Shown here piece after piece: positions 22,821-64,000 of a stretch of 64,000 nucleotides of DNA. Position 1 is the first letter of the stretch. Every line of letters begins with the position of its first letter. Source of the DNA: Hyaloperonospora brassicae (Eukaryota > Oomycota > Peronosporomycetes > Peronosporales > Peronosporaceae); the NCBI GenBank assembly GCA_947650285.1, contig CANTFL010000748.1, forward strand, positions 62,001 to 126,000, in the 5' to 3' direction. The notes beneath the pieces were generated by a model. It worked only from the letters and a program-made list of their open reading frames with translations. It was not told where the DNA came from and ran no database searches. Made by a program: the position numbers and the translations under genes.

Positions 22821-24614
22821 TCAAACCGCCACTTTCACTTGTCCATTCTGCTCAGCTGAGTTCGGGACACCGTCGTACACGTCCTCGGTACCAAAGTGAG
22901 TGGCCGCGAGTTCAGATGACACCTTCATGTCAAAGGCAGGCATTTCACCCACGCAGGACTTGTCCACGCGTCTGAGGTTTGCGTTGTTTGCAACGTACGA
23001 GATGAGCAATTCCATTCCGCAGTTCTTGCCATCGTCTCCAAACGGTGTTTTCTCAATCGTCACTTCCGGCGAGTAGTCGAATGTAACAAGTTCCTTCTTC
23101 GACGTGTTGAGCGTCTTGAGCAAAGTCCTGGCGTGCTTGATGTGATTCACTGGGTCCAATCGTCCGTGCATCAGTAGCACGCTGGCATGGCCGGGGACCG
23201 TAGCCGGTTCAGCCCAGAACTGATCATGCGGGTATAGGAGGGAATCAGCTTCGTACTGAGCCACTCCTACTTCCTCGCACGCCAGCGACTGCTCTTTCGA
23301 GTATTGACAGTACATGGGGATCGTGCAGGGACTCTTGACGTCCGACATGCTCAAAGTCTCGAAGCGAGTTAGCAGGTCGGTAAAGGTTGGCGTAGGTGTC
23401 TGCCACATTTCGGAAAACACAATCAACATTGATTGCACGTACGAATTGAGCGACTCGCTGTCGTCGAGTGCCGGATCCTTTGCGCGGGAGGCCGCAAAGA
23501 ATGTCGTCAAGACGTCGACGTCGTTGGCATCGCATCGATTGATCCTGTGCACCACTGGTGCGATCATGGATCGCGCGCTTGCGTCCATCAAAAGCCCGCC
23601 CAGTTTGAATCGAAGGCCAGTAGATGGATCTTCCCCAGACGCCTTCGCGACCATCTTAGCGCAAGTCGAGTTTGGATTGCTATCGAACTCTTTAAGGACG
23701 TTGTAGAGCGTGGCGGACAAGCTGGTGGCTTTGAAGTGAGAAGCGCAGCCGCTGTCTTGCGCGCACAGCCTCATAAAACGATCGCCCACGTCACTAAACT
23801 CAGCATCGTGCTCGGTGTAGTAAGACTTCTTGCCCGGTGCGACTGACGAGGCGATAGTGCTGTCCAAAACGTATCCGTTCACGCTCGACGGTTTCAACTG
23901 CATCAGACGCTGGACTGCCAACGTTCCGTAGCCCGAGCCGTATACAATCGTGTCCGCGTCGTTTGTGTGCTTGGCAATGAAGCTGGAAATGTCCATAGCA
24001 GCGCTCGTGGTTGAGAATGAAGCGAGGTTTCCATACTTTTTGTGCAGGTTTTGAGAGCACGCAGGAACCTCCAGGTATATCGCGTCGCCTTCAGGCTGGG
24101 TCTTGATCGTCGGGCTCTCACCTGACTCGCAATGAAGCCGTGTACTGCGTCCACTGCCGCGGACGTCCATCGTGTACACGTTGACTGCTCCTCCCAGACT
24201 CTTGTAAAGCGTCACCATCGACTGCTCCACTACAACATGATGCACAAGTGTCCTCAATTAGTGTCAACCTATATCCGAGTACAACCACAACCTTCCCGTA
24301 CCTGTAGCGGACGCAGCCCCTGAGATGAACCACACGTTCGCGGCGCCATCCGCCTTGACTCCCTTCGCACGCAACCGCTTGACGAAGACGTCGATTGTCG
24401 GCTTTACACCCACCGGTACCTTACAGACACCAGAGTGACACAACGGAGTCTCGTAGGTCACGCACTCGGCTTTGTATTCGCCTTTGCCGGGGAAGCTGTA
24501 CGCCGAGCAAGGTCCCCATCCGGGAAACGAACGACCCAACGTGCTGTTGAGAGCGGCCGAGCCTTGGCCGACCCATCCAGCTGCGAGTGTGCTCAGCGCG
24601 TAATGAAGACGCAT
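22821..24614 (-). CDS. Secreted S33/TAP-like serine protease family protein, probably non-catalytic
   Basis: Joining 24614-24302 and 24229-22821 gives a 573-residue protein (1722 bp, frame kept). Residues 1 to about 20 look like a signal peptide (MRLHYALSTLAAGWVGQGSA), so it is probably secreted; there are many Cys and several NxT sites. The fold is alpha/beta hydrolase: MVTLYKSLGGAVNVYTMD at 109-126, DVRGSGRS at 126-133, ASFSTTSA at 174-181, and LLMHGRLDP at 456-464 carrying the expected catalytic Asp463. From memory of oomycete S33 relatives, the nucleophile box should be GxSYG, but here residues 202-206 are GSGYG, with Gly at the Ser position. The catalytic His expected after the EYATHG-type strand is absent (YSPEVT at 490-495), and the oxyanion GGPG box is GAAS (about 100-103). 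The frame is otherwise intact. It is the only gene here with a host-gene look. I infer a pseudoenzyme. Confidence 0.85.
24230..24301 (-). other. Intron of the S33-family gene (72 bp)
   Basis: On the minus strand the donor is ACAG|GTACGG and the acceptor GTTGTAG|TGGAG, with a branch-like ACTAAT about 30 nt before the acceptor. Splicing joins phase-1 codon halves to give ...SAT-VEQSMVTL..., restoring the family's conserved block. Unspliced, the reading frame stops within the intron. Confidence 0.8.
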
Positions 24615-26919: not shown

Positions 26920-26924
26920 AAGTG
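26920..26924 (+). repeat. Target-site duplication of gypsy A (left)
   Basis: AAGTG, identical to 34736-34740 immediately after the 3' LTR. Confidence 0.9.
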
Positions 26925-27451
26925 TGTAACGGGGTTACACGTCGGCTGGTAGCCGACGATAGGTGTGGGGCACACACGAGAGGGGGGTACCCTATAAGGT
27001 AATCTTAGAACACAGTGAGCGTATCAATTGTTGAAGACTGGTGTCTGTCATCAATTGATTGCAAGATCTTTTAAGAGGTTATTTAGGGCAGGTTAAATAC
27101 GTTGTTCTAAGGTGTTCTTTTAGGTTAAATGAAGAAATAAAATTCAGTTCCCATTTTGATCAACAAAAGACACGTGCCTCTCTCAGGCGTCTTGCGATCG
27201 TAAGGAAGTAGCAACGCCTTGTTAAGGCAGCTACTCCTTGTGCACTTAGTGCATTCGATTCTTTGAATCGTTTGGTCCCCCTGGAACAGGGACCGTAAGC
27301 TCTTTGAGCTGTTGACTCTCTGAGTCGGGTTCTCTTAACCTTCTTTAAGCTCTCTGAGCTGTTGACTCTCTGAGTCGGGTACTTTGAACCAAAGTTGCTC
27401 ATTGAGCGTAAAGTCTTCCTCTGACTTAAGGAGCTGTGTAGCTCCGCCACA
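26925..27451 (+). repeat. gypsy A 5' LTR
   Basis: It runs TGTAACGGGG...CTCCGCCACA. The second half (27170-27451) is a run of small perfect inverted repeats, for example GCCTTGTTAAGGC, GATTCTTTGAATC, AGCTCTTTGAGCT, GACTCTCTGAGTC (twice), CTTTGAACCAAAG and GAGCTGTGTAGCTC, plus GGTCCC...GGGACC. Confidence 0.95.
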
Positions 27452-30990: not shown

Positions 30991-31293
30991 TGCTGGACTA
31001 GCACTGAGCATGATGCTTTTCAAGCAGTCAAGGAGAGTCTCCTACATGCGCCCATATTGGCTTTGCCTGACCCTGATCGATCTTTAAGTGTCGTCTGTGA
31101 CGCATATGACTTTGCCATAGGCAGCGCTCTGTTACAAACAGATGATGATGGGCGGGAACGCGTTATTGCGTTTGAGTCCCGACAGCTAAAAGCTGCGGAG
31201 AAAAACTATCTTGTTCATGACAAAGAGCTGCTTGCAATGAAGTATGCTCTCGTCAAATTCAGAGTTCATCTTCTTGGCTCTAAGCCGTTGTGA
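30991..31293 (+). pseudogene. gypsy A Pol, RNase H
   Basis: The same frame resumes after the TGA. LSVVCDAYDFAIGSALLQ, VIAFESRQLKAAEKNY and KELLAMKYAL are the standard gypsy RNase H blocks with the first Asp and Glu residues. At about 31285 a single base is missing (SKP-L-stop instead of SKPF-VIDTDHASL), so the end of RNase H continues one register over. Gypsy B carries the identical deletion. Confidence 0.8.
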
Positions 31294-33281
31294 TCGATAC
31301 AGATCATGCGTCACTACGCACTGCGAACCAGTCGCCTCACCTCTCTCAGAGAATGGCTCGTTGGCTTTCCTTCTTTGCCGAGTACAACTTCGAGGTGAAG
31401 TATAAGCCGGGCAAGCAAAATGCTTTGGCGGATGCGTTGTCACGCAGGCCTGACTATGAGCTTGCTCATGTTACGACTCTGTCGTCACCGGTCACTGACC
31501 TAATCCGCACGGCGTATGTCAAGGATGAACATTGTGTAGCTCTGCTACGTGCTCTAGGGAGCGAGGAGTTTAAGGACTCGGACATAGAATTGTCGTCACG
31601 GTTACGTGCGAGGTTACATCGATATTCCATCGATCAAGGCCTGTTGTGCTATAGCACGGATGTGGAGGATACCCCTCGCATCGTTGTCCCTCATGATGAG
31701 GAGTTGAAGTATCGGATCCTCTATGAGGCACATGATACTGCGTTGAGTGATCATCTCGGTCGTGAAAAGACCTACGGCTCTGTGAGCCAATGCTATTGGT
31801 GGCCCAAACTATACAAATGGGTGAGCACCTATGTACGTACGTGTGAAACGTGTCAACGGGTGAAACCCTCACCACATGCGGCAGCGCCGCTGGCTAGTTT
31901 GCCTATACCCAAAGGGTGTTGGGAGTCCATCAGTATGGACTTCCTGTTCGGTTTACCGAAGTATTCGTATGGAAATACGGGTATTGTGGTCTTTGTTGAC
32001 CGTTTGAGCAAGATGGCTCATTTAGGGGCGGTGCCAGACACCATTGATGGTGAAGGTAAAGCGACGCTGTTTATCGATCGCGTGTTTCGACAACACGGTC
32101 TGCCGTTGGCAATTGTCTCTGATCGAGATCCCCGCTTCACTGGGAAGTTTTGGAAATCTATCTTCAAAGTGCTCGGCACACGTTTGGACATGTCCACAGC
32201 GGATCATCCGCAGACCGATGGTCAAACGGAGAGCATCAATTGTGCCATTGGTGACATCTTGCGTAGTGTTTGCGCTGAAACACCTAAGCGTTGGAGCTCG
32301 ATGCTCCCTGTCGTTGAGTTTGCGTTGAATAACGCTGTGCATGACTCCACCGGCTACACCCCGTTCTACGTGAACGGTCTCACACACCCTCGCGTTTCGT
32401 TAACGCTACCACTACGTGGTTCAGGGCTTGGTGGGGGAGGAGTTGCCGATCGGCTTGCTGATATCAGCCCTGCTACTGTTCAAAACCAGGTAAGCGAGTT
32501 TCTCGCAACGCGATTGAACGTCTTACGACATGTGCGTGACGCACTGGCTGATAGCCAAGACAAACAGAAGGAACAAGCAGATGCCAAAGGCAGAGGTTGT
32601 ATTGAACGTTATGAGGTCGGAGACCAAGTTCTACTCAATGCTAAAAACCTACCTACAAATGTAGTATCCGCCGTCTTCAAGACGAAGTTGCGCCCGCGCT
32701 TCATTGGACCCTTTACGGTCGTCGCAAAGAAGGGACTTGCGTATACGCTCAACCTTCCGCGCAAACTGCGCACACACCCCGTGTTCTACGTTGGCATGCT
32801 TAAGCCGTATCGGGATCCGTCCCACGTGAACTTGAAGGCGCTTGCGCCGGGTAGGTTGGCTTTGCCATCGGGTGCTGAATCCGTATCAGGAGGTCAAGCT
32901 GAGCCTCCATCCGGGCTTGGCCCAACTCCAACGCCCGAACACGGGCTCGCATTGCGTCGAACGCACTCTGGGTCTGACCCAACGTCTCACGGAGACCACT
33001 CAGCTCGAGAAGCACCTTCTCGTGCTCCTCCTTCGGTATACCGACCACCTCCGACGCTGCTCGATGAGCAAGGGAACCGCCAATTCCATGTGGAACGACT
33101 CCTGAAACGACGTCGTCGTCAGGGTCAATACCAGTATCTGGTGAAGTGGCGAGGGTACCCGGAGTCGGAGAACTCGTGGGAGTTTGAGACACCCCTTCGG
33201 CAGGATTGCCCATACGCCGTTGATGCTTTTGAACATCGTGGCAGGGGTCATCCTTCGACCGATATCGCTTCCCACCAATAG
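31290..33281 (+). pseudogene. gypsy A Pol, RNase H end, integrase and chromodomain
   Basis: A 663-codon uninterrupted frame. It opens with the end of RNase H (TDHASLRT) and ADALSRRPDY, then the HHCC zinc-binding region (HDTALSDHLG, CETCQR), then the DDE core: Asp in SMDF, Asp in SDRDPRF and Glu in QTES (32229-32231). An SH3-like C-terminal part and a Pro/Ser-rich linker (about 32850-33070) follow, then a chromodomain (FHVERLLKRR, YLVKWRGYPESENSWE; about 33070-33240). Chromodomains steer integration to particular histone marks. The last 482 bp overlap an antisense ORF. This part could still make an integrase if expressed. Confidence 0.9.
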
Positions 33282-34101
33282 TGGTGGAGGCAGGTGGGTA
33301 GTTTGGTACCGCTTGACCAACTCCCACTTCCCTCGGCACAGCCGGAGCATAGCGTGTGCGAGTTCGCAATTGGCCTCTGGCCTTAAGCTTGGCATGGTCA
33401 TACCGAAGCTTTCGTTCTAGAAGAACATCTGCCACATTGGCACTTGCTCTGAGAGCTAGCATGCTGCTGAGGTGACGTTTCCGGTGCACCTAGCGAGCAA
33501 AAGCGTTGTCTTCTTCCTCCGGAGATTCGCCTGCGAATAAGAGGATGGGTATACCCTTCATCGGTGGAACCGGTGCACCCCGTGCTTGCGTGTCAAGTCG
33601 CAACTTGTATTGACTTAGAGTCGTCAAGTGGGGTTGCAGGTACCTCTCACGAAGTGCCTGTCGGCTCGCCACTTCATCAGAAGATGTCGGCTCAGCGCCA
33701 ATGGCCCACGTTGCCAGGGAATGACCTGTCGTTTGGCGTATACGCTCTTCCACATTGAGTGGCGTGAACTGATAGCCACGACGACCCTCAAGGTCTGCAG
33801 CAAGCTGCATACGGCGCTGAGCGCTCTCCTCTTGTTGGATTACCAACTCTTGTTGCTCATCGAGCGGGTTGGTGATGATGTGTTCACCTGCATCTGTTGC
33901 ATGATGCTGGGTTTCTAACGCGGCGGTCTCACTACGCTCGGCAAATGGGTTTGGTGCAGTATGAGGCGATGCCTCTTGCACTGGTGAGTTGGACATTGTC
34001 CGTTCTTCACCACGGACATCGGTATCACTACCATAGTCCTCCTCCACATTAATGCCGAGGTAAGAAGAGAGAGTCGGGGACTCGTAAGGTGGCGATGCCA
34101 T
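32800..34101 (-). CDS. Antisense coiled-coil ORF of gypsy A (one in-frame TAG)
   Basis: From ATG 34101 (context ACCATGG), 108 bp inside the 3' LTR, the minus strand is open for 434 codons except for TAG at 33492-33490 (codon 204), which gypsy B shares. The N-terminal part is acidic (NVEEDYGSDTDVRGEE), the middle has a QFTPLNVEERIRQTTG-like block, and the C-terminal third has a strongly heptad-like stretch (EEHEKVLLELSGLRETL through RVRALELGQARMEAQL) that I read as a coiled coil at about 33040-32890. The last 482 bp lie opposite pol's linker and chromodomain. No relationship to Gag, Env or other known retroelement proteins is visible. Expression would need an antisense promoter in or near the 3' LTR. 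Confidence 0.6.
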
Positions 34102-34199: not shown

Positions 34200-34208
34200 G
34201 AGGGAGGG
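34200..34208 (+). promoter_or_regulatory. Polypurine tract of gypsy A
   Basis: GAGGGAGGG abuts the 3' LTR and would prime plus-strand DNA synthesis. Confidence 0.75.
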
Positions 34209-34735
34209 TGTAACGGGGTTACACGTCGGCTGGTAGCCGACAATAGGTGTGGGGCACACACGAGAGGGGGGTACCCTATAAGGTAATATTAGAACACAGT
34301 GAGCGTATCAATTGTTGAAGACTGGTGTCTGTCATCAATTGATTGCAAGATCTTTTAAGAGGTTATTTAGGGCAGGTTAAATACGTTGTTCTAAGGTGTT
34401 CTTTTAGGTTAAATGAAGAAATAAAATTCAGTTCCCATTTTGATCAACAAAAGACACGTGCCTCTCTCAGGCGTCTTGCGATCGTAAGGAAGTAGCAACG
34501 CCTTGTTAAGGCAGCTACTCCTTGTGCACTCAGTGCGTTTGATTCTTTGAATCGTTTGGTCCCCCTGGAACAGGGACCGTAAGCTCTTTGAGCTGTTGAC
34601 TCTCTGAGTCGGGTTCTCTTAACCTTCTTTAAGCTCTCTGAGCTGTTGACTCTCTGAGTCGGGTACTTTGAACCAAAGTTGCTCATTGAGCGTAAAGTCT
34701 TCCTCTGACTTAAGGAGCTGTGTAGCTCCGCCACA
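34209..34735 (+). repeat. gypsy A 3' LTR
   Basis: 527 bp, differing from the 5' LTR at five positions, three of them in and beside the GTGCACTYAGTGC hairpin. It is followed by the AAGTG target duplication. Confidence 0.95.
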
Positions 34736-35539: not shown

Positions 35540-36071
35540 TGTAGCGGAGCTACACATCTCCTTAAGTCAGAGGAAGACTTAACGCTCAATGAAAAACTTT
35601 GGTTCTACGAACCCCACTCAAAGAGTCAACAGATCCGAGTGCTAAGATTTGGTTCAAAGCACCCGACTCAAAGAGTCAACAAGCTCAGAGAGCTTACGGT
35701 CCCTGTTCCAGGGGGACCAAACGATTAAAAGAATCAAACGCACTGAGTGCACAAGGAGTAGCTGCCTTAACAAGGCGTTGCTATCTCCTCAACGATCACA
35801 AGACGCATCAAAGAGGCACGTGTCTATCCGATAAAAAAGGGGAACTGAATGTTATTTCTTCTTTTAACCTAAAATAACACTTAAGAACAAAGTAATTAAC
35901 CTTCTCGCTAATGTCCTAAATATTCCTCTCAAAAGATCTCGTAATCAATGGTTGACAGACATCAGGCTTCAACAATTGATACTGTGTTCTATTATCACTT
36001 TAAAGGGTGTCCCATCCCTTGTGTGCACCACACCCATTGTCGACTATCAGTCGACGTCTAATTCCATTACA
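35540..36071 (-). repeat. gypsy B 3' LTR
   Basis: 532 bp; at the element's end (low coordinates) because B runs on the minus strand. It has one fewer GACTCAAAGAGTC-containing unit than the 5' LTR. The purine-rich GTCAGGGTGAG on the minus strand just above 36071 is its polypurine tract. Confidence 0.9.
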
Positions 36072-36180
36072 CTCACCCTGACCAGACTGACATTACCACA
36101 AAACGTCAATCGAATTCTTTCCTCGAAGAAAACGGTGTGTGTGCGCTTCAACCTTCACGGTTTGCAAAACACGAAACACC

Positions 36181-37482
36181 ATGTCATCGCCACCCGATGC
36201 GCCCTCGACTCTCTCTTCGTACATCGGCCTTGATGTGGAGGTGGATTATGGTAGCGATAACGATATCCATGGTGAAGAGAGGAAAATGTCCGGCTCACCA
36301 GTGAAAGAGGCACCGCCTCATATTGCACCGAACATATTTGCCGAGCTTGGCGAAGCCAACGCACCATCGGCGCCAAATCAAACACCCATCGTGGGCGATG
36401 CCATCATCGCCAATCCGCTCGATGAGCAACAACAGTTGGCTTTTTAACAAGAGGAGAGCCCTTAGCGCTGTCAGCAGCTTTCTGCAACCCTTGAGGGTCG
36501 TCGTGGCTATCTGTTCACACCACTCAATGTGGAAGAGCGTATACACCAAACGACAGGTCGTTCTTTGGCAACGTGGGCCATTGGCGCTGAGCCTACATTG
36601 TCTGATGAGGTGGCGAGGAGACAAGCACTTCGTGAGAGGTACCTTTAACCCCACTTGACGACTCTAAGTCAATACAAGTTGCGACTTGACACGCAAGCAC
36701 GGGGTGCACCGGTTCCACCGATGAAGGGTATACCCATCCTCTTATTCGCAGGCGAATCTCAGGAGGAAGAAGACAACGCTTTTGTTCGCTAGGTGCATCG
36801 GAAACGACACCTCAGCAGCGTGTTAGCTCTCAGATCAAGTGCCGATGTGGCAGATGTTCTTCTAGAACGAAAGCTTCGGTATGATTACGCCAAGCTTAAG
36901 GCCAGAGGCCAGTTGCGAACTCGCACACGCCATGCTCCGGCTACGCCGACTGATGTGGGTGTTGGTCAAGCGGTACCCAACTACCCACCTGCCTCCACCA
37001 CTATTGGTGAGAAGCGCTCTCGGTAGAGGGATGACCCCTGCCACGATGTTCAAAAACATCAACGGCGTATGGGCAATCCTGCCGAAGGGGTGTCTCAAAC
37101 TCCCACGAGTTCTCCGACTCCGGTTACCCTCGCCACTTCACCAGATACTATTATTGACCCTGACGACGACGTCGTTTCAGGAGTCGCTCCACATGGAACT
37201 GGCGGTTCCCTTGCTCATCGAGCAGCGTCGGAGGTGGTCGGTATACCGAAGGAGGAGCACGAGAAGGTGCTTCTCGAGCTGAGTGGTCTCCGTGAGACGT
37301 TGGGTCAGACCCAGAGTGCGTTCGACGCAATGCGAGCCCGTGTTCGGGCGTTGGAGTTGGGCCAAGCCCGGATGGAGGCTCAGCTTGACCTCCTGACACG
37401 GATTCAGCAACCGATGGCAAGGTCAACCTACCCGGCGCAAACGCCTCCAAGTTCACTTGGGACGGATCCCGATACTACTTAA
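36181..37482 (+). pseudogene. Antisense coiled-coil ORF of gypsy B, five in-frame stops
   Basis: From ATG 36181 (context ACCATGT) the frame has exactly the same length as in gypsy A (1,302 bp) with no net indel. Stops lie at 36445, 36463, 36646, 36790 (shared with A) and 37024. The part opposite pol (37069-37482), which encodes the coiled coil, is still open. In the same stretch the sense chromodomain frame has acquired two adjacent stops (near 37149) that are only a missense change in the antisense frame. Confidence 0.6.
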
Positions 37483-43033: not shown

Positions 43034-43614
43034 TGTAGCGGAGCTACACAGCTCCTTAAGTCAGAGGAAGACTTAACGCTCAATGAGCAACTTTGGTTCT
43101 ACGAACACGACTGAAAGAGTCAACATCTCTACGAGCAACTTTGGTTCTACGAACCCGACTCAAAGAGTCAACAGCTCCACGTGCTAAGATTTGGTTCAAA
43201 GTACCCGACTCAAAGAGTCAACAAGCTCAGAGAGCTTACGGTCCCTGTTCCAGGGGGACCAAACGATTAAAAGAATCAAACGCACTGAGTGCACAAGGAG
43301 TAGCTGCCTTAACAAGGCGTTGCTACTTCCTTACGATCGCAAGACGCCTCAGAGAGGCACGTGTCTTTTGTTGATCAAAATGCGAACTGAATTTTATTTC
43401 TTCTTTTAACCTAAAAGAAAACCTTAGAACAAAGTAAATAACCTCCTCACTTATGTCCTAAATAAACAAATTAAAAGATCTCGTAATCAATGATTGACAG
43501 ACATCAGTCTTCAACAATTGATACTTGTGTTCTAATATTACTTTAAAGGGTATCCCATCCCTTGTGTGTACCACACCTATTGTCGACTACCAGTCGACGT
43601 GTAACCCCGTAACA
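43034..43614 (-). repeat. gypsy B 5' LTR
   Basis: 581 bp. It holds three units with the palindrome GACTC-AAA-GAGTC (one unit degenerate), against two in the 3' LTR, which accounts for the length difference of about 50 bp. Confidence 0.9.
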
Positions 43615-44639
43615 CTGGTCATGGCTGGAATAACCGCTGCACACTCATGTGCGGGGCACGACAAATTTGGGTATCCCGATTCCAGAGCGAAAAGCTGTTG
43701 CTCTTCGGAAGATACAGCGTCTGAGCGTTGGTTAGAAGAGAGCTCGCATCTGCCGGATATTTCTCTAAGTAAACAACGGTGTAACTTATGTAATCGCGTA
43801 AAAATCCGTCTTTGCCTCACGTTGACCGATATGTCCAGTTTCTTCAGCACGACGGTGCCGGAAGATAACCTGTTTCAATTTGCGTCGGGTGGGAGCCATC
43901 GTCTACGTCCAACCGGCATGTTTACCACGCTCGTGAGCGCAGGATGCACGCCAAAGTGGAAATGTGTCCCAATAGATACAGATGTGGCTACATCTTATGC
44001 CGATATCGAAATGACTGATGTTATATCGCATTCCATGCCTGATCGAAATATGGTAGACACGGACCGGCACTTTTGAGGATCCATTCATGAAATAGGTGTA
44101 CTTTCGTTGAGAACGCAATCATAAAACCCATTTCAAGTGCCCGAAACATCAGCGAGGGGAAATGTACAAAAGGGCGAAGCAACAGCAACCAAAATTCCGC
44201 GGCTTCGCCACAGATTGGGATGCCATGTCACGCGTAGGCGAAAACAAGACAATTCCACATAAATGGTTGCCGAAGACACTGTGTCGCCAATGCAAGAATT
44301 TTTAACCTCGCAAATTTACCCCCGATTAAGTAATAAGTCTATCCCCGTCGATCCCTCAGCCAATACATATCCTGGAGCGTAGCTTGCACCTGTCACCTGT
44401 GTTCAAAATGCCCCGATGCCGCTTCTTCAGCTCTCATTCCATCCCGTAGCTTGTCATCAAGTACCCGGTGAACATCAATTGTGACACTGACTTCGTCCAA
44501 ATCTTCGACCTTAGATCTGTAATTAAACGAGATGACTCTTCGTCATGCCCTTTTGCTCTCACCTTGACCAGCATGTCGAGCCGCTGAAAGTCCAACCATT
44601 ATGAAGCCGATTAACCATAGTGTCTCTCAATATCTAGGG
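43615..44639. other. Spacer between gypsy B and LINE copy 2
   Basis: It starts with the right-hand CTGGT duplication (43615-43619). An open frame on the plus strand (to 44076) has no recognisable domain. I see no gene. Confidence 0.5.
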
Positions 44640-59800: not shown

Positions 59801-61176
59801 GAACATTAGTATGCGTTTAGATGTGAGCCACTCACTCCCTTCATTCTGTAAATGCCCAGCTTGTTCCGTAACATTAAAGATAGGAAGAACGCTTCGAACC
59901 TAGGACCAAAAACACAAAACAATCGCTTCATGTAACGTAGATACAGTAGATACAGTGTGAAAGAGCTCCAAAGCTCGCAAAAAATCGTCAATTTTCCGAT
60001 AGTCAGACATTTTGGATGCGAAGAATTGCGAAATTGATACACAAACTACATCATATTATATTCGAATAGAAGTGACTCTGTCAAGTCACGTCTATTTGCG
60101 ACTGAGATCATTTACTGCATTACCGACTGCTATCTTCCTATTACGTTCTGCGTCGATCACATTGGCCGATTTGATGATTGCCTTCTGGTAAACTTTGTTT
60201 TGTCCAGCATCCGCTGAAGCTAAGTGCAAATGCGGAAGGGCGATATATGGTAGAAATTTGACCTCACATCGAGATCATCGAAGGAGATCGTGTCTGATTG
60301 CTACTATGGTAGTTGTTTTTTCTTCCTTACCCGCAAGCTGTCATTTATCTCCCACAATGTGGTGCTTGTATAACCTTCTGCACAAAAGATACTGGCATCT
60401 AATACGTCTAGAGTAACGCATACTAAATCGAATCAAACGCGTGCGACCTGGCGCACTCAATTCCTGCATTACTATGATACAAATTGGATTACCCATCTGC
60501 AGATGTTGTTAATTGTATGCCTACTTGCAAAAAGTAGCTGAATAGAACTGATGCACTACTAGCTGATCCCAGCAGGCATTCCTCACCACCTGCAAATCTG
60601 CCGCCGACCTACTCGCAATCATCTTATTCATCGTCTATATTAAACATGTACACTAGCAATAATGTAAGCAAATTTGATCGTTACGGTCATTATAAATGCA
60701 CTTTAGGATCAGTTCGTGTAGTGAAAAGGGAATGGTAAGTAAATCTAAGTATCCCCGGTCGAAGCTTACAGTTCTGTGCAATCAATGGCGATGTCTCTAT
60801 ACCAGGAGACGCGCCTCCGACTCCAACTAGAACCATAGAGTCCTTGGACCGCCGGGAACTCTTATGGAGGCCTCGACGACGTCGTCTTTCCAACATGCAC
60901 ACTACTATTCACAAAATGATTTGGCTGTCTTTGTACGACTAGAGAGAGAGGCTGAGTTTAAAAAGCGACCTTAAATGGCCAATTATGGCTTCCACTTTGC
61001 CATAAAACGCAAAACATTACGTTCGTTCGCCAGCATAAGCTGTACACCGACCAGTGTGTATTCGAAGCTAGAGAAAGCCAATTTGTGGGTGCATCGTCGA
61101 AAAACACGGCGTATATCTTGATATAGAGGTATCAAGGCGAGGAACGAATGACCAATGCTAGAAGTTGATCGTCTTG
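59801..61176. other. No supported gene
   Basis: No domain is recognisable on either strand; ends at the gypsy C insertion point (flank GTCTG at 61177-61181). Confidence 0.5.
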
Positions 61177-61181
61177 GTCTG

Positions 61182-61569
61182 TGTAACGGGGCACACCCTT
61201 GCGTAACTTAACGCAAGGGATTTGGGTGCCCCGACGGACGTACACGTGGCGAGCGAGGAAGCGTAGGTAGGGTAAAAGTAGAACTGTTATATTAATAAAT
61301 TAAGTCTTTAAACTACTGTCTCTTCGTTTGACTTAATTCAATTATGCTAATATAACTGCATGTATGGTGACGTCTCGTCACCACTCATTGCGCGCGTCTT
61401 GCGGCGATTGGTGGGTTGATATCATCACGATATCAACCAATGAACAGACCCTTTGGTCGACCCTTCAATATCACCACTTTGGTGATATTGTTTAAAGAAT
61501 ATCCATCTTATATTCTTTATTGTCACTTTCCTTAAGTGACAATATCATGTAACGGGCTGCCCCGTTACA
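61182..61569 (-). repeat. gypsy C 3' LTR (388 bp)
   Basis: It runs TGTAACGGGGC...GCCCCGTTACA. It contains six perfect inverted repeats of 8-11 bp, including CCTTGCGT/ACGCAAGG, GTTGATATC/GATATCAAC, CAATATCACC/GGTGATATTG, AAAGAATAT/ATATTCTTT and TATTGTCACTT/AAGTGACAATA. Related copies lie at 2344-2733 and 56395-56830. Confidence 0.9.
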
Positions 61570-61584
61570 TCACCCCCCCTTAAC
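61570..61584 (-). promoter_or_regulatory. Polypurine tract of gypsy C
   Basis: The minus strand reads AAGGGGGGGTGA directly before the 3' LTR. Confidence 0.8.
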
Positions 61585-61699
61585 TGATAGTCACCGTGTG
61601 ACTATCGAAATATGGAGGCCACCCGTTGGCCACCATTGGGACAGGGAGCACTTGTTTGGTCCGTTCCACTCACTTTCCGCTTGACCTCGCATAGTTAAC

Positions 61700-63303
61700 A
61701 TGTCTATGCGAGGTGACTCAAGACCCACACAGCCTGGTGCTGTGCAAGCCTCTGCGGCAGACGCTTCGTCGTCTGCCGCCCCTTCCTCGCCTGCACAACA
61801 GGTGCTGCAGGTGCACGCGGTATCACGCCGCGTGCGCACGATGACCCCGATGTGGAGGTCATCTACTCTGGCGAGTCAGACGTGTCTGACTCGGGCAATG
61901 CTCCAGAGGCGTCTCGCTCACCGGCGACGCCTCAGTATTCGCCAAGGCCACTGCCGAACGAACGGACTCGTGATTCGCATCACAGTCTGTTCGGCAGTGA
62001 TGACGATGATCAGGGTGGTGAGTTCTATTCTTCACCACCGCCGGCTCGTGCGTCTTCGCACGAGCGTGATGACGATGGCGCGAGCCGTCGTCAATCTGGG
62101 AGCCGTGGTACCGACAAGGGTACCACTGTGAAGCGTGATGAGTTGAAGCCGTGGCGTTTGCCCGAACAACTCATCAATAGCCTGTCTCACGAGACAGGCC
62201 AACACCATCGAATACCCTTATTCGATGCGACTGAGCTTCACGGCTTGGATCCCAGCGCGAAGAACTTTCGCGCTGAAGAAGACTTTTATCTCGATGTCTT
62301 CCTTAGACATCGATGGTACAATAGCAACCAAAAGCGTGACAAAACATCGCTTATGGCTGCGTGGAACGCGTTCGTCCAAAACGTAAAGAATTTTGGACGA
62401 GAAGGGTGGCTCAAGAAACTTGAGGCAACACGCCTCAGGTTCGAACGGCGAACGCCAACCGGTGCTAGGTACCAATTGCATTGTTTATCGAGTGAGGCAG
62501 GCATTCCTTGCCTCACATGGGGAGACCCTTGTGCGAGTTGTGTTGACAACTCGCAGCGTGCACATAGGGATGTGTACTCCCTAAATTCGCCCTGGGGAAG
62601 GGCACATCTCTCGGACGAGATGCGTGACGCGATTGCAAACTTGCAATCCGTCTACAAGCGCCTAGGGCGCGTGTTTACCGATGGGCCACAGGACTCATCG
62701 GATGGGTCTCGTCATACTGGTGGACGAGACCTTCAACATCCATTAATAGCTGAGAGCGGGGCTCCCAGCTGTTCCAAGAGGGTGGATACCCCCGCCACTG
62801 GGCGAGGTAGCTCATCCTTGATCCTGAATCGTCACGGTGATTCAAGATACGCTCCACTAGAAAGCGTTGATCACCGTGAGCATCCACCAAAGGATGTGGT
62901 GGAGGAGGAAAGACCTCCTCCAGAACCCCAGGCCCACCATCTCGACCCTTACGAGATGGATCGCGCAATCGATGAATTGCGCGATGACTTGAAGCACGAG
63001 CGCGACCGACGCTACGCTTTGACCGACATCGTGCGGAAGAACCGCAAGGGTCACGAGGCTGATCGGGCGAGGGATCGCGCCGATTATGCCACGGCGCAGC
63101 TTCAGGTCGAGCGGGATGTCCGCTCCCTTTTCGGCGAGCTGGCGACAGCTCGCGGAGAGATAACTCGGTTGAATACCGAGGTATCATATCTGCGCGACCA
63201 GACGGATCGTCTGGAGCGCGAACGCAAGAACTTGATGGATGTTCTTGAACGTGGGGGCTATCTTCATCGGAAGAAGAAGGCTCGTACTGACAGTACGACC
63301 TAA
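61700..63303 (+). CDS. Antisense coiled-coil ORF of gypsy C
   Basis: The main frame is open from 61717 to TAA 63303 (about 528 codons). An ATG at 61700 (or 61709) opens a Ser/Ala-rich frame one register over, so a single indel near 61800 would give a protein of about 535 residues. It has an acidic N-terminal part (DPDVEVIYSGESDVSDSG, resembling DVEVDYGSDND in gypsy B) and a central domain with EDFYLDVFLRHRWYN, REGWLKKLEATRLRFERR and a Cys cluster CLTWGDPCASC. A long charged coiled coil covers about 62950-63260 (AIDELRDDLKHERDRR through DQTDRLERERKNLMDVLE), with a basic tail. The last 629 bp are opposite pol. Function unknown; no known retroelement family is recognised. Confidence 0.6.
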
Positions 63304-63907
63304 GCCTCCCCACGTAAAACGTAGGATGCGTGCGCATCCTACGTGGCAATTCGAGTGTGTATGCATTGCCCTTGCGATGCAATACTCGAAATGGCCCAAT
63401 GTATTTCGGCAGTAGTTTACTACTGCCGACACTAGTGACTGCATGTCCAGGTAGGTTTACCGTTGACAGTAGTACTAGGTCATTAACCTTAAATGAAAGA
63501 ACATTTGCTCTTCCATTCTTGTCTGCGTTCCGTTTCTGACGGTCCACCGCATTTGCGATGGAGTCCTGAACGAAACGGACTACCGCTTCTCGAGTCAGCA
63601 GGAAGTTCTCTGCTGACTCTTTGTTTTGTCTAGCAGTGCGCTTCGTGCGCACTGCTAAGAGATTGCTCTCTTCTTCAGCGAGGTTGTCTTCTTCCTCGCT
63701 GGCATAATCGTTGGCGATGCTGAATATACCAGCATCGTCATCATCATCCGAATCAATAATAGCGTCTTCGCTATTATTGAGATGATCTTCTTCATCGATG
63801 TCGACTTGATCGACATCGGCATCATACGTGACGACGTTTGCGTCGACACGTGATGAGCAAGAGCCAAAACGGTTTTTGCTCGAGCGAGTCCCTCCCCCCT
63901 TATCCAA
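62675..63907 (-). CDS. gypsy C Pol, integrase C-terminus and chromodomain
   Basis: A 410-codon open frame. It begins in an unusual Asp-rich segment (SEDAIIDSDDDDDAG, EEEDNLAEEESN), then the integrase C-terminal part (KNGRANVLSFKVNDLVLLS, LLPKYIGPFRVLHRKGNAYTLELP, MRTHPTFYVGRL), a long Pro/Arg/Ser-rich linker, and a chromodomain (FLVERILNHRDDSGS, YLAQWRGYPPSWNSWEP; about 62860-62700). Upstream (63990-63900) the integrase continues in another register (HASTQHTPFYVNGLRHPRVP). A frameshift therefore lies at the G-run near 63893. Confidence 0.85.
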   Translation of the reverse strand: MDKGGGTRSSKNRFGSCSSRVDANVVTYDADVDQVDIDEEDHLNNSEDAIIDSDDDDDAGIFSIANDYASEEEDNLAEEESNLLAVRTKRTARQNKESAENFLLTREAVVRFVQDSIANAVDRQKRNADKNGRANVLSFKVNDLVLLSTVNLPGHAVTSVGSSKLLPKYIGPFRVLHRKGNAYTLELPRRMRTHPTFYVGRLRSYCQYEPSSSDEDSPHVQEHPSSSCVRAPDDPSGRADMIPRYSTELSLRELSPARRKGSGHPARPEAAPWHNRRDPSPDQPRDPCGSSARCRSKRSVGRARASSHRAIHRLRDPSRKGRDGGPGVLEEVFPPPPHPLVDAHGDQRFLVERILNHRDDSGSRMSYLAQWRGYPPSWNSWEPRSQLLMDVEGLVHQYDETHPMSPVAHR

Positions 63908-64000
63908 GAGTCACACCCTAGAAGGGTGGGCACACGTGGATGGCGTAGGCCATTCACGTAAAACGGTGTGTGCTGTGTTGAAGCATGCACCGAATTATTG

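Follow-up and report, generated by a model that had tools for sequence, protein, structure and literature searches.

HBZ and APH of HTLVs and ASP of HIV-1 are retroviral antisense proteins. Retroviral antisense genes are described as lying on the minus strand and being read from the 3′ LTR, and HBZ as having an activation domain at its N-terminus and, at its C-terminus, a bZIP able to pair with further factors (PMC10186651). Most members of the plant Retand lineage of Ty3/gypsy elements (Retand, RIRE2 and Grande) carry antisense ORFs in the region that separates pol from the 3′ LTR, and a regulatory role has been proposed for these ORFs (PMC11963269). The Retand elements are presented as non-chromoviruses with a pol-3′ LTR region of 2.9-6.6 kb and mostly TRP28 proteins, and the word 'overlap' is absent from the main text of that paper (PMC11963269). 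The open-access literature searched yielded no paper that deals with antisense genes in gypsy elements of oomycetes, and the available text of PMC6264045 is silent on them.

The window (the whole stretch of 64,000 nucleotides from Hyaloperonospora brassicae that was analyzed) belongs to a genome of 100.6 Mb. The features of its elements A, B and C are as follows.

26921..27451, + strand: 5′ LTR of element A, 531 bp, 98.87% identity to 34205-34735.
31290..33281, + strand: pol ORF of element A, with integrase zinc finger, rve core, SH3_Tf2-1 and chromodomain.
32619..32813, + strand: SH3_Tf2-1 domain of A pol (pol ORF residues 444-508).
32814..33083, + strand: SH3-chromodomain linker of A pol, facing the antisense coiled coil.
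33084..33239, + strand: chromodomain of A pol (pol ORF residues 599-650).
32800..34101, - strand: antisense gene of element A, 433 codons, with one in-frame stop in this copy (33492-33490).
33367..33867, - strand: residues 79-245 of antisense protein A, predicted to fold into a core, beyond pol.
32875..33033, - strand: predicted C-terminal coiled-coil helix of antisense protein A (residues 357-409), facing the pol linker.
34205..34735, + strand: 3′ LTR of element A, 98.87% identity to 26921-27451.
About 35540-36072 and 43034-43615: LTRs of element B.
36181..37482, + strand: antisense gene of element B, an older copy with five in-frame stops and without frameshift.
61700..63303, + strand: antisense gene of element C, 534 codons when intact, with a 1-nt deletion in the window copy.
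62675..63907, - strand: part of the pol ORF of element C, with SH3 at 63481-63293, the linker, and the chromodomain at 62860-62708.
62947..63255, + strand: helix of antisense protein C predicted to be a coiled coil (residues 417-519 in intact copies), facing the pol linker.

By its features (LTRs, Ty3 capsid/gag, protease, RT and integrase, then a chromodomain), element A is a Ty3/gypsy chromovirus, and element B is a relative. In this copy of A, gag, protease and RT lie upstream of the pol ORF at 31290..33281, in separate frames. Pfam matches above the cut-offs were PF03732, PF19259, PF08284, PF00078, PF17921 and PF00385, and the rve core (PF00665) was below its cut-off in the window copy.

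Long reading frames antisense to the 3′ end of pol are present in A, B and C, as the first-pass annotation had proposed. They end, also as proposed, in the integrase-chromodomain part, where the frame crosses the chromodomain and the linker and stops at the end of SH3_Tf2-1. Two details had to be corrected: the start had been placed inside the 3′ LTR, which is wrong for A, where the ATG at 34101 is 104 bp internal of the LTR; and none of the frames, taken as open, is intact in the window, given the single stop in A, the five in B and the deletion in C. The last of these, near the antisense start of the window C copy (L001), leaves an open frame at 61852-63303. Unbroken forms of 433 aa (A) and 534 aa (C) are found at other loci of the genome. 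In A, 820 of 1302 nt are antisense-only and 482 nt overlap pol; in C, 976 of 1605 nt are antisense-only and 629 nt overlap pol. In both, the overlap makes up the C-terminal 37-39% of the antisense ORF, from the SH3 end to the chromodomain, and the antisense-only remainder extends from the pol stop toward the 3′ LTR. The double-coded SH3-chromodomain linker comprises about 90 residues in A and 144 in C.

When compared with the Retand elements, the oomycete elements likewise place an antisense ORF after pol and ahead of the 3′ LTR, here intact in part of the copies and partly overlapping pol; unlike them, they have a chromodomain, and the gene overlaps pol in one register. The TRP28 domain (PF04195) had no match in any of the five antisense proteins searched, a search in which the HMMER filters may drop weak matches. 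As with HBZ, APH and ASP, the gene lies on the minus strand; in contrast to theirs, it faces the integrase linker and the chromodomain, and the bZIP family was absent among the Pfam matches of the same five proteins. The elements share with chromoviruses the LTRs, gag, protease, RT and an integrase that carries SH3 and a chromodomain, but add an antisense gene and a double-coded SH3-chromodomain linker. The oomycete gene would work like the Retand antisense ORFs and HBZ and is a member of neither group. The earlier statement that nothing of this kind is standard in Ty3/gypsy elements was too strong, since the Retand ORFs as described are a precedent (PMC11963269). What is new here is an antisense gene in oomycete chromoviruses that overlaps pol, antisense accessory ORFs being already known from Retand. 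This further, distant occurrence in stramenopile chromoviruses, besides those in some retroviruses and in a plant lineage, suggests that LTR elements have repeatedly arrived at accessory genes on the minus strand.

We consider that the ORF is very probably (roughly 0.9) a genuine, selected antisense accessory gene of an oomycete chromodomain Ty3/gypsy group, as judged from its preservation, distribution and pattern of substitution. Among copies chosen by their pol, which were the best 30 of 150 matches for A and 14 hand-picked of 150 for C, the antisense ORF was fully intact in 19/30 and 3/14, respectively. Among copies chosen by their antisense sequence it was fully intact in 14/20 (A) and 7/8 (C).

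One 1-nt deletion opposite the linker is common to four of the 14 pol-chosen C copies (L075, L076, L078 and L079). For two members of this subfamily, the antisense ORF measures 487 and 483 aa and the pol frame ends early, presumably leaving the chromodomain out of frame. The gag-pol open frames of the four copies are 998, 1605, 1605 and 513 aa, respectively, and 1666 aa in some other copies. A 1605-aa frame also occurs in further copies, so the deletion variant may have spread. The subfamily suggests that the end of the antisense gene is dispensable in some spreading C copies, perhaps helped in trans.

The arrangement is not confined to A and C. Four other loci were taken from the 150 SH3 matches listed, three because their pol frame was long and open; the antisense ORF was intact in D (459 aa), A′ (433 aa) and E (478 aa), and broken in a C-like one. 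A, A′, C, D and E each have an antisense ORF in the interval from pol to the 3′ LTR (a presumed one for D and E), and a chromodomain was found in the host elements A, C, D and E. The antisense ORFs of D and E overlap pol further (840 and 1098 nt), and their cores share 42% identity over 181 aa. The D core region has 130 genomic matches, and a frame of 457-465 aa is open in 21 of the best 22. The register described earlier, in which position 3 of the pol codon faces position 2 of the antisense codon, was recovered in A and C and likewise in D and E, and the antisense stop site is identical across these four families as well. Downstream of element E (L084, 2157-2758), two + strand ORFs look by eye like the start of the C antisense gene, which suggests a nested or adjacent C-type element.

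In the AlphaFold model of antisense protein A, residues 79-245 form a core (pLDDT blocks mostly 80-94), and residues 357-409 form a long helix near the C-terminus (blocks 88-97 from residue 361). For protein C, a helical core at about 178-321 (blocks 50-91) and a helix at 417-519 (blocks 88-97 from residue 421) were predicted. The whole-model mean pLDDT was 66 (A) and 60 (C), with a pTM of 0.37 each and much of the rest below 50. A coiled coil opposite the pol linker, as had been suggested for both families, is thus consistent with the long C-terminal helices predicted there in A and C. Heptad a/d hydrophobicity exceeded that of shuffled sequences in 5/5 antisense proteins (P 0.000-0.017). No Pfam family was above its cut-off for the five proteins (searched at E<=1 for A and C and at E<=0.1 for A′, D and E), the best weak match being the leucine-zipper family PF14389 on the C coiled coil (E 0.0028, 18.4 bits vs. 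a cut-off of 32.2). A fold search of the antisense proteins gave nothing at E<=0.001.

Homology was not detected between the A and C cores or between the A and D/E cores. A W-AF / CxxC pattern thought to be common to the C and D/E cores was not supported: the BLASTP E value was 0.17, and a profile match (probability 69%) lay only opposite the chromodomain. Because the cores are not detectably homologous, one shared function for the A, C and D/E proteins is an assumption.

Protein searches returned 95 relatives of the A antisense protein, the named ones from Peronospora, Hyaloperonospora, Phytophthora and Nothophytophthora, and 51 of the C protein, where the names are from Peronospora and Hyaloperonospora. 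Over 43% of its length, the C protein is matched at 100% identity by a Hyaloperonospora brassicae record (P0124). In an alignment of 21 A-type sequences, 12 residues are invariant, all within the antisense-only core. Identity to the reference copy L010 among downy-mildew/ENA sequences was 0.51 in the N-terminus, 0.70 in the core, 0.67 opposite the chromodomain and 0.59 opposite the linker and coiled coil; among Phytophthora-type sequences it was 0.26, 0.39, 0.52 and 0.31, respectively. In the latter, the chromodomain-facing part is more similar than the core, a pattern that pol constraint alone would give there. The terminal stretch of a P. cactorum protein (P0091) resembles, by eye only, the C antisense sequence past its stop, which hints at the same pol overlap in that relative. 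Among viral contigs, 93 pattern matches to A-type relative DNA were obtained and none was confirmed.

Two Hyaloperonospora arabidopsidis records named 'RxLR effector candidates' (P0130 and P0131) are 64% identical to the C antisense protein over 42% and 38% of it, respectively, and are probably transposon-derived annotations. Annotators are warned that A-type proteins are mostly 'uncharacterised' in public databases and that these two are C-type.

What the protein may do is suggested by analogy. The gene lies opposite gag-pol, from pol to the 3′ LTR, and its 3′ part also covers the integrase linker and the chromodomain. By comparison with HBZ and Retand, it would be read on the minus strand, starting from the 3′ LTR, and yield a nuclear, self-associating protein. 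Such a protein might tune the transcription or the RNA of its own element, like the antisense regulator HBZ, with an RNA-factor-like action as the alternative for the RS-rich D and E versions. In the overlap, the need to encode a coiled coil would shape an otherwise loose integrase linker. A role as a transcriptional regulator is put forward tentatively, at somewhat less than even odds. A rival on function only is a real protein that acts in handling RNA (its packaging or export) or shields the element from silencing by the host rather than controlling transcription; this is possible but less likely than not. The sense and antisense transcripts could pair into dsRNA, hairpins abound in C-, D- and E-type sequences, and the D and E proteins have an Arg/Ser-rich stretch with 27 and 25 RS/SR dipeptides; but there are only 4 such dipeptides in A and 8 in C, and no RNA-binding domain reaches its Pfam cut-off.

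A captured gene, carried as a passive passenger or serving the host rather than the element, would account for proteins with no Pfam match above cut-off and for cores that differ among element families, as separate captures would give. This reading is improbable, however, given a stop position and register common to A, C, D and E, an A-type protein in four genera, and constraint on the variants shared among transposed copies.

This last evidence came from comparison of copies, for which the antisense-only part permits a clean coding test. The alignment comprised 62 sequences (40 A after merging 59, and 22 C), with antisense-chosen and pol-chosen copies together. In the antisense-only part, synonymous excess was assessed by a permutation test that held base-change type and CpG context constant. 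Intact, hand-chosen reference copies were paired with others chosen for divergence and few frameshifts (L010 vs. 7 of 39 other A copies, and L002 vs. 5 of 21 other C copies).

In the antisense-only part of the reference copies, the gene frame is free of stops, against 4-16 (A) and 6-24 (C) in the other five frames. A synonymous excess was observed in 7/7 A pairs (P from 0/2000 to 0.007, w 0.49-0.62) and in 5/5 C pairs (P from 0/2000 to 0.0225, w 0.28-0.53), the pairs not being independent. Two control frames on the same strand gave w 0.92-2.72 in the same pairs, without synonymous excess. Between A and A′ (L083), both with intact ORFs, 272 of 819 antisense-only sites differ, with w 0.47 (0/4000 shuffles) and one stop-creating change in this part where 8.5 were expected (P 0.0018).

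When variants were divided by their occurrence, single-copy variants, presumably acquired mostly post-insertion, were near neutral: w was 1.08 (P 0.70) in A and 0.82 (P 0.10) in C. Shared variants, defined as present in at least two copies without a tree-based count, were constrained, with w 0.66 (P 0.005) in A and w 0.48 (0/4000) in C. Since the shared variants are constrained and the single-copy ones near neutral, selection appears to act during element replication.

These sequence comparisons indicate that the antisense frame is under purifying selection in the antisense-only part, with w about 0.3-0.65 and controls mostly >1. Stops and indels placed as sense constraint alone would place them, which the first-pass annotation had named as an outcome against the gene, were not what was found in this part, which is free of pol constraint.

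C-type elements are saturated with perfect short hairpins, coding regions included (L002, L081 and window 61000-64000). The stems are 6-12 bp long and the commonest total span is 23 nt. There were 49 hairpins in 4449 nt vs. a shuffle mean of 1.3, and 34 in window 61000-64000 vs. a shuffle mean of 1.1. The C pol has 19 in 1494 nt vs. 0.86 under synonymous shuffling, and the upstream 3407 nt has 44 vs. 1.65. Single-copy variants in the C antisense gene occur at 0.211 per site in stems and 0.202 in the rest, but shared variants are 4.6-fold scarcer in stems (0.032 per site) than in the rest (0.147). This difference between shared and single-copy variants suggests that, in the course of replication, the C hairpins are important or undergo correction. 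D and E are also hairpin-enriched, with 17 each in 2801 nt vs. 0.4 and 1.4 in a rough mono-nucleotide shuffle. Hairpins are few in the A family (0-1 per coding region tested).

Conservation of the region through RNA or DNA structure, or through a noncoding antisense RNA, instead of a protein would fit the hairpin richness of C-type elements and the conserved stems among shared variants. We regard this as very improbable, and hairpins were rejected as the cause of the coding signal: in C the frame-specific synonymous excess of the shared variants remained when the stem sites were removed (w 0.46, 0/4000), and the A family has one hairpin in 819 antisense-only nt yet the same coding signal. Antisense-only singletons outside stems lean toward constraint (w 0.75, P 0.056).

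The overlap offers many natural replicates of double-coded genes. The proposal that the antisense protein dictates the linker is supported by the shared variants of C and is suggestive only in A. In the C linker, shared variants gave w 0.41 (P 0.0035) for the antisense frame conditional on pol, and w 0.79 (P 0.31) for pol conditional on the antisense frame. Without hairpin stems, w was 0.45 (P 0.014) for the former and 0.68 (P 0.17) for the latter. Singletons in the C linker lean toward pol constraint (P 0.015-0.024). That C linker variation is limited by the antisense frame rather than by pol is thus supported by the pattern of shared variants.

Antisense constraint was not significant for shared variants of the A linker (w 0.91, P 0.35), and the A vs. 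A′ linker gave w 0.69 (P 0.08). Over the whole overlap, P for antisense constraint was 0.0097-0.19 in six of the seven A pairs, and such constraint was absent in the remaining one (L054, P 0.99), as it was in the A vs. A′ chromodomain stretch (w 3.39). Divergence between A and A′ was 33% (272/819) in the antisense-only part, 17% (47/270) in the linker and 10% (15/153) in the chromodomain. The lower divergence of the linker is what constraint from two frames would give.

After synonymous shuffling of pol, the overlap was open in the true antisense phase with P 0.033 (A), 0.0074 (C) and 0.0064 (D), and in 0/5000 shuffles in the actual phase of E. A chance ORF, open merely through base composition and pol constraint, keeps almost no probability: the A overlap part could by itself be open by chance at the P given above, but 820/1302 nt (A) and 976/1605 nt (C) lie beyond pol with a coding signal there, antisense-only w is about 0.3-0.65 vs. 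>1 for the control frames in most tests, and A-type homologues with 12 invariant core residues across 21 sequences occur in four genera.

Beyond a selected accessory gene in A and C, we lean toward a clade-wide antisense system in oomycete chromodomain retrotransposons. It would have (i) at least three mutually unrecognisable proteins (A-, C- and D/E-type); (ii) a common stop position, register and C-terminal coiled coil (the core being modelled in A and C only); and (iii) double coding that shapes the linker, which in C would become a triple code with hairpins kept through the replication cycle.

The LTRs of A contain short dyads (window 27296-27390 and 34580-34674; L010 900-1200, by eye). 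Many are 13 nt long with a C-A[A/G]A-G centre and varying matched arms, and they lie partly in two 50-bp tandem units; the RNA fold z was -7.2. Elsewhere in the window, at 22821-24257 (- strand), a 478-aa ORF matches an alpha/beta hydrolase (PF00561) and is apparently a host gene among the elements.
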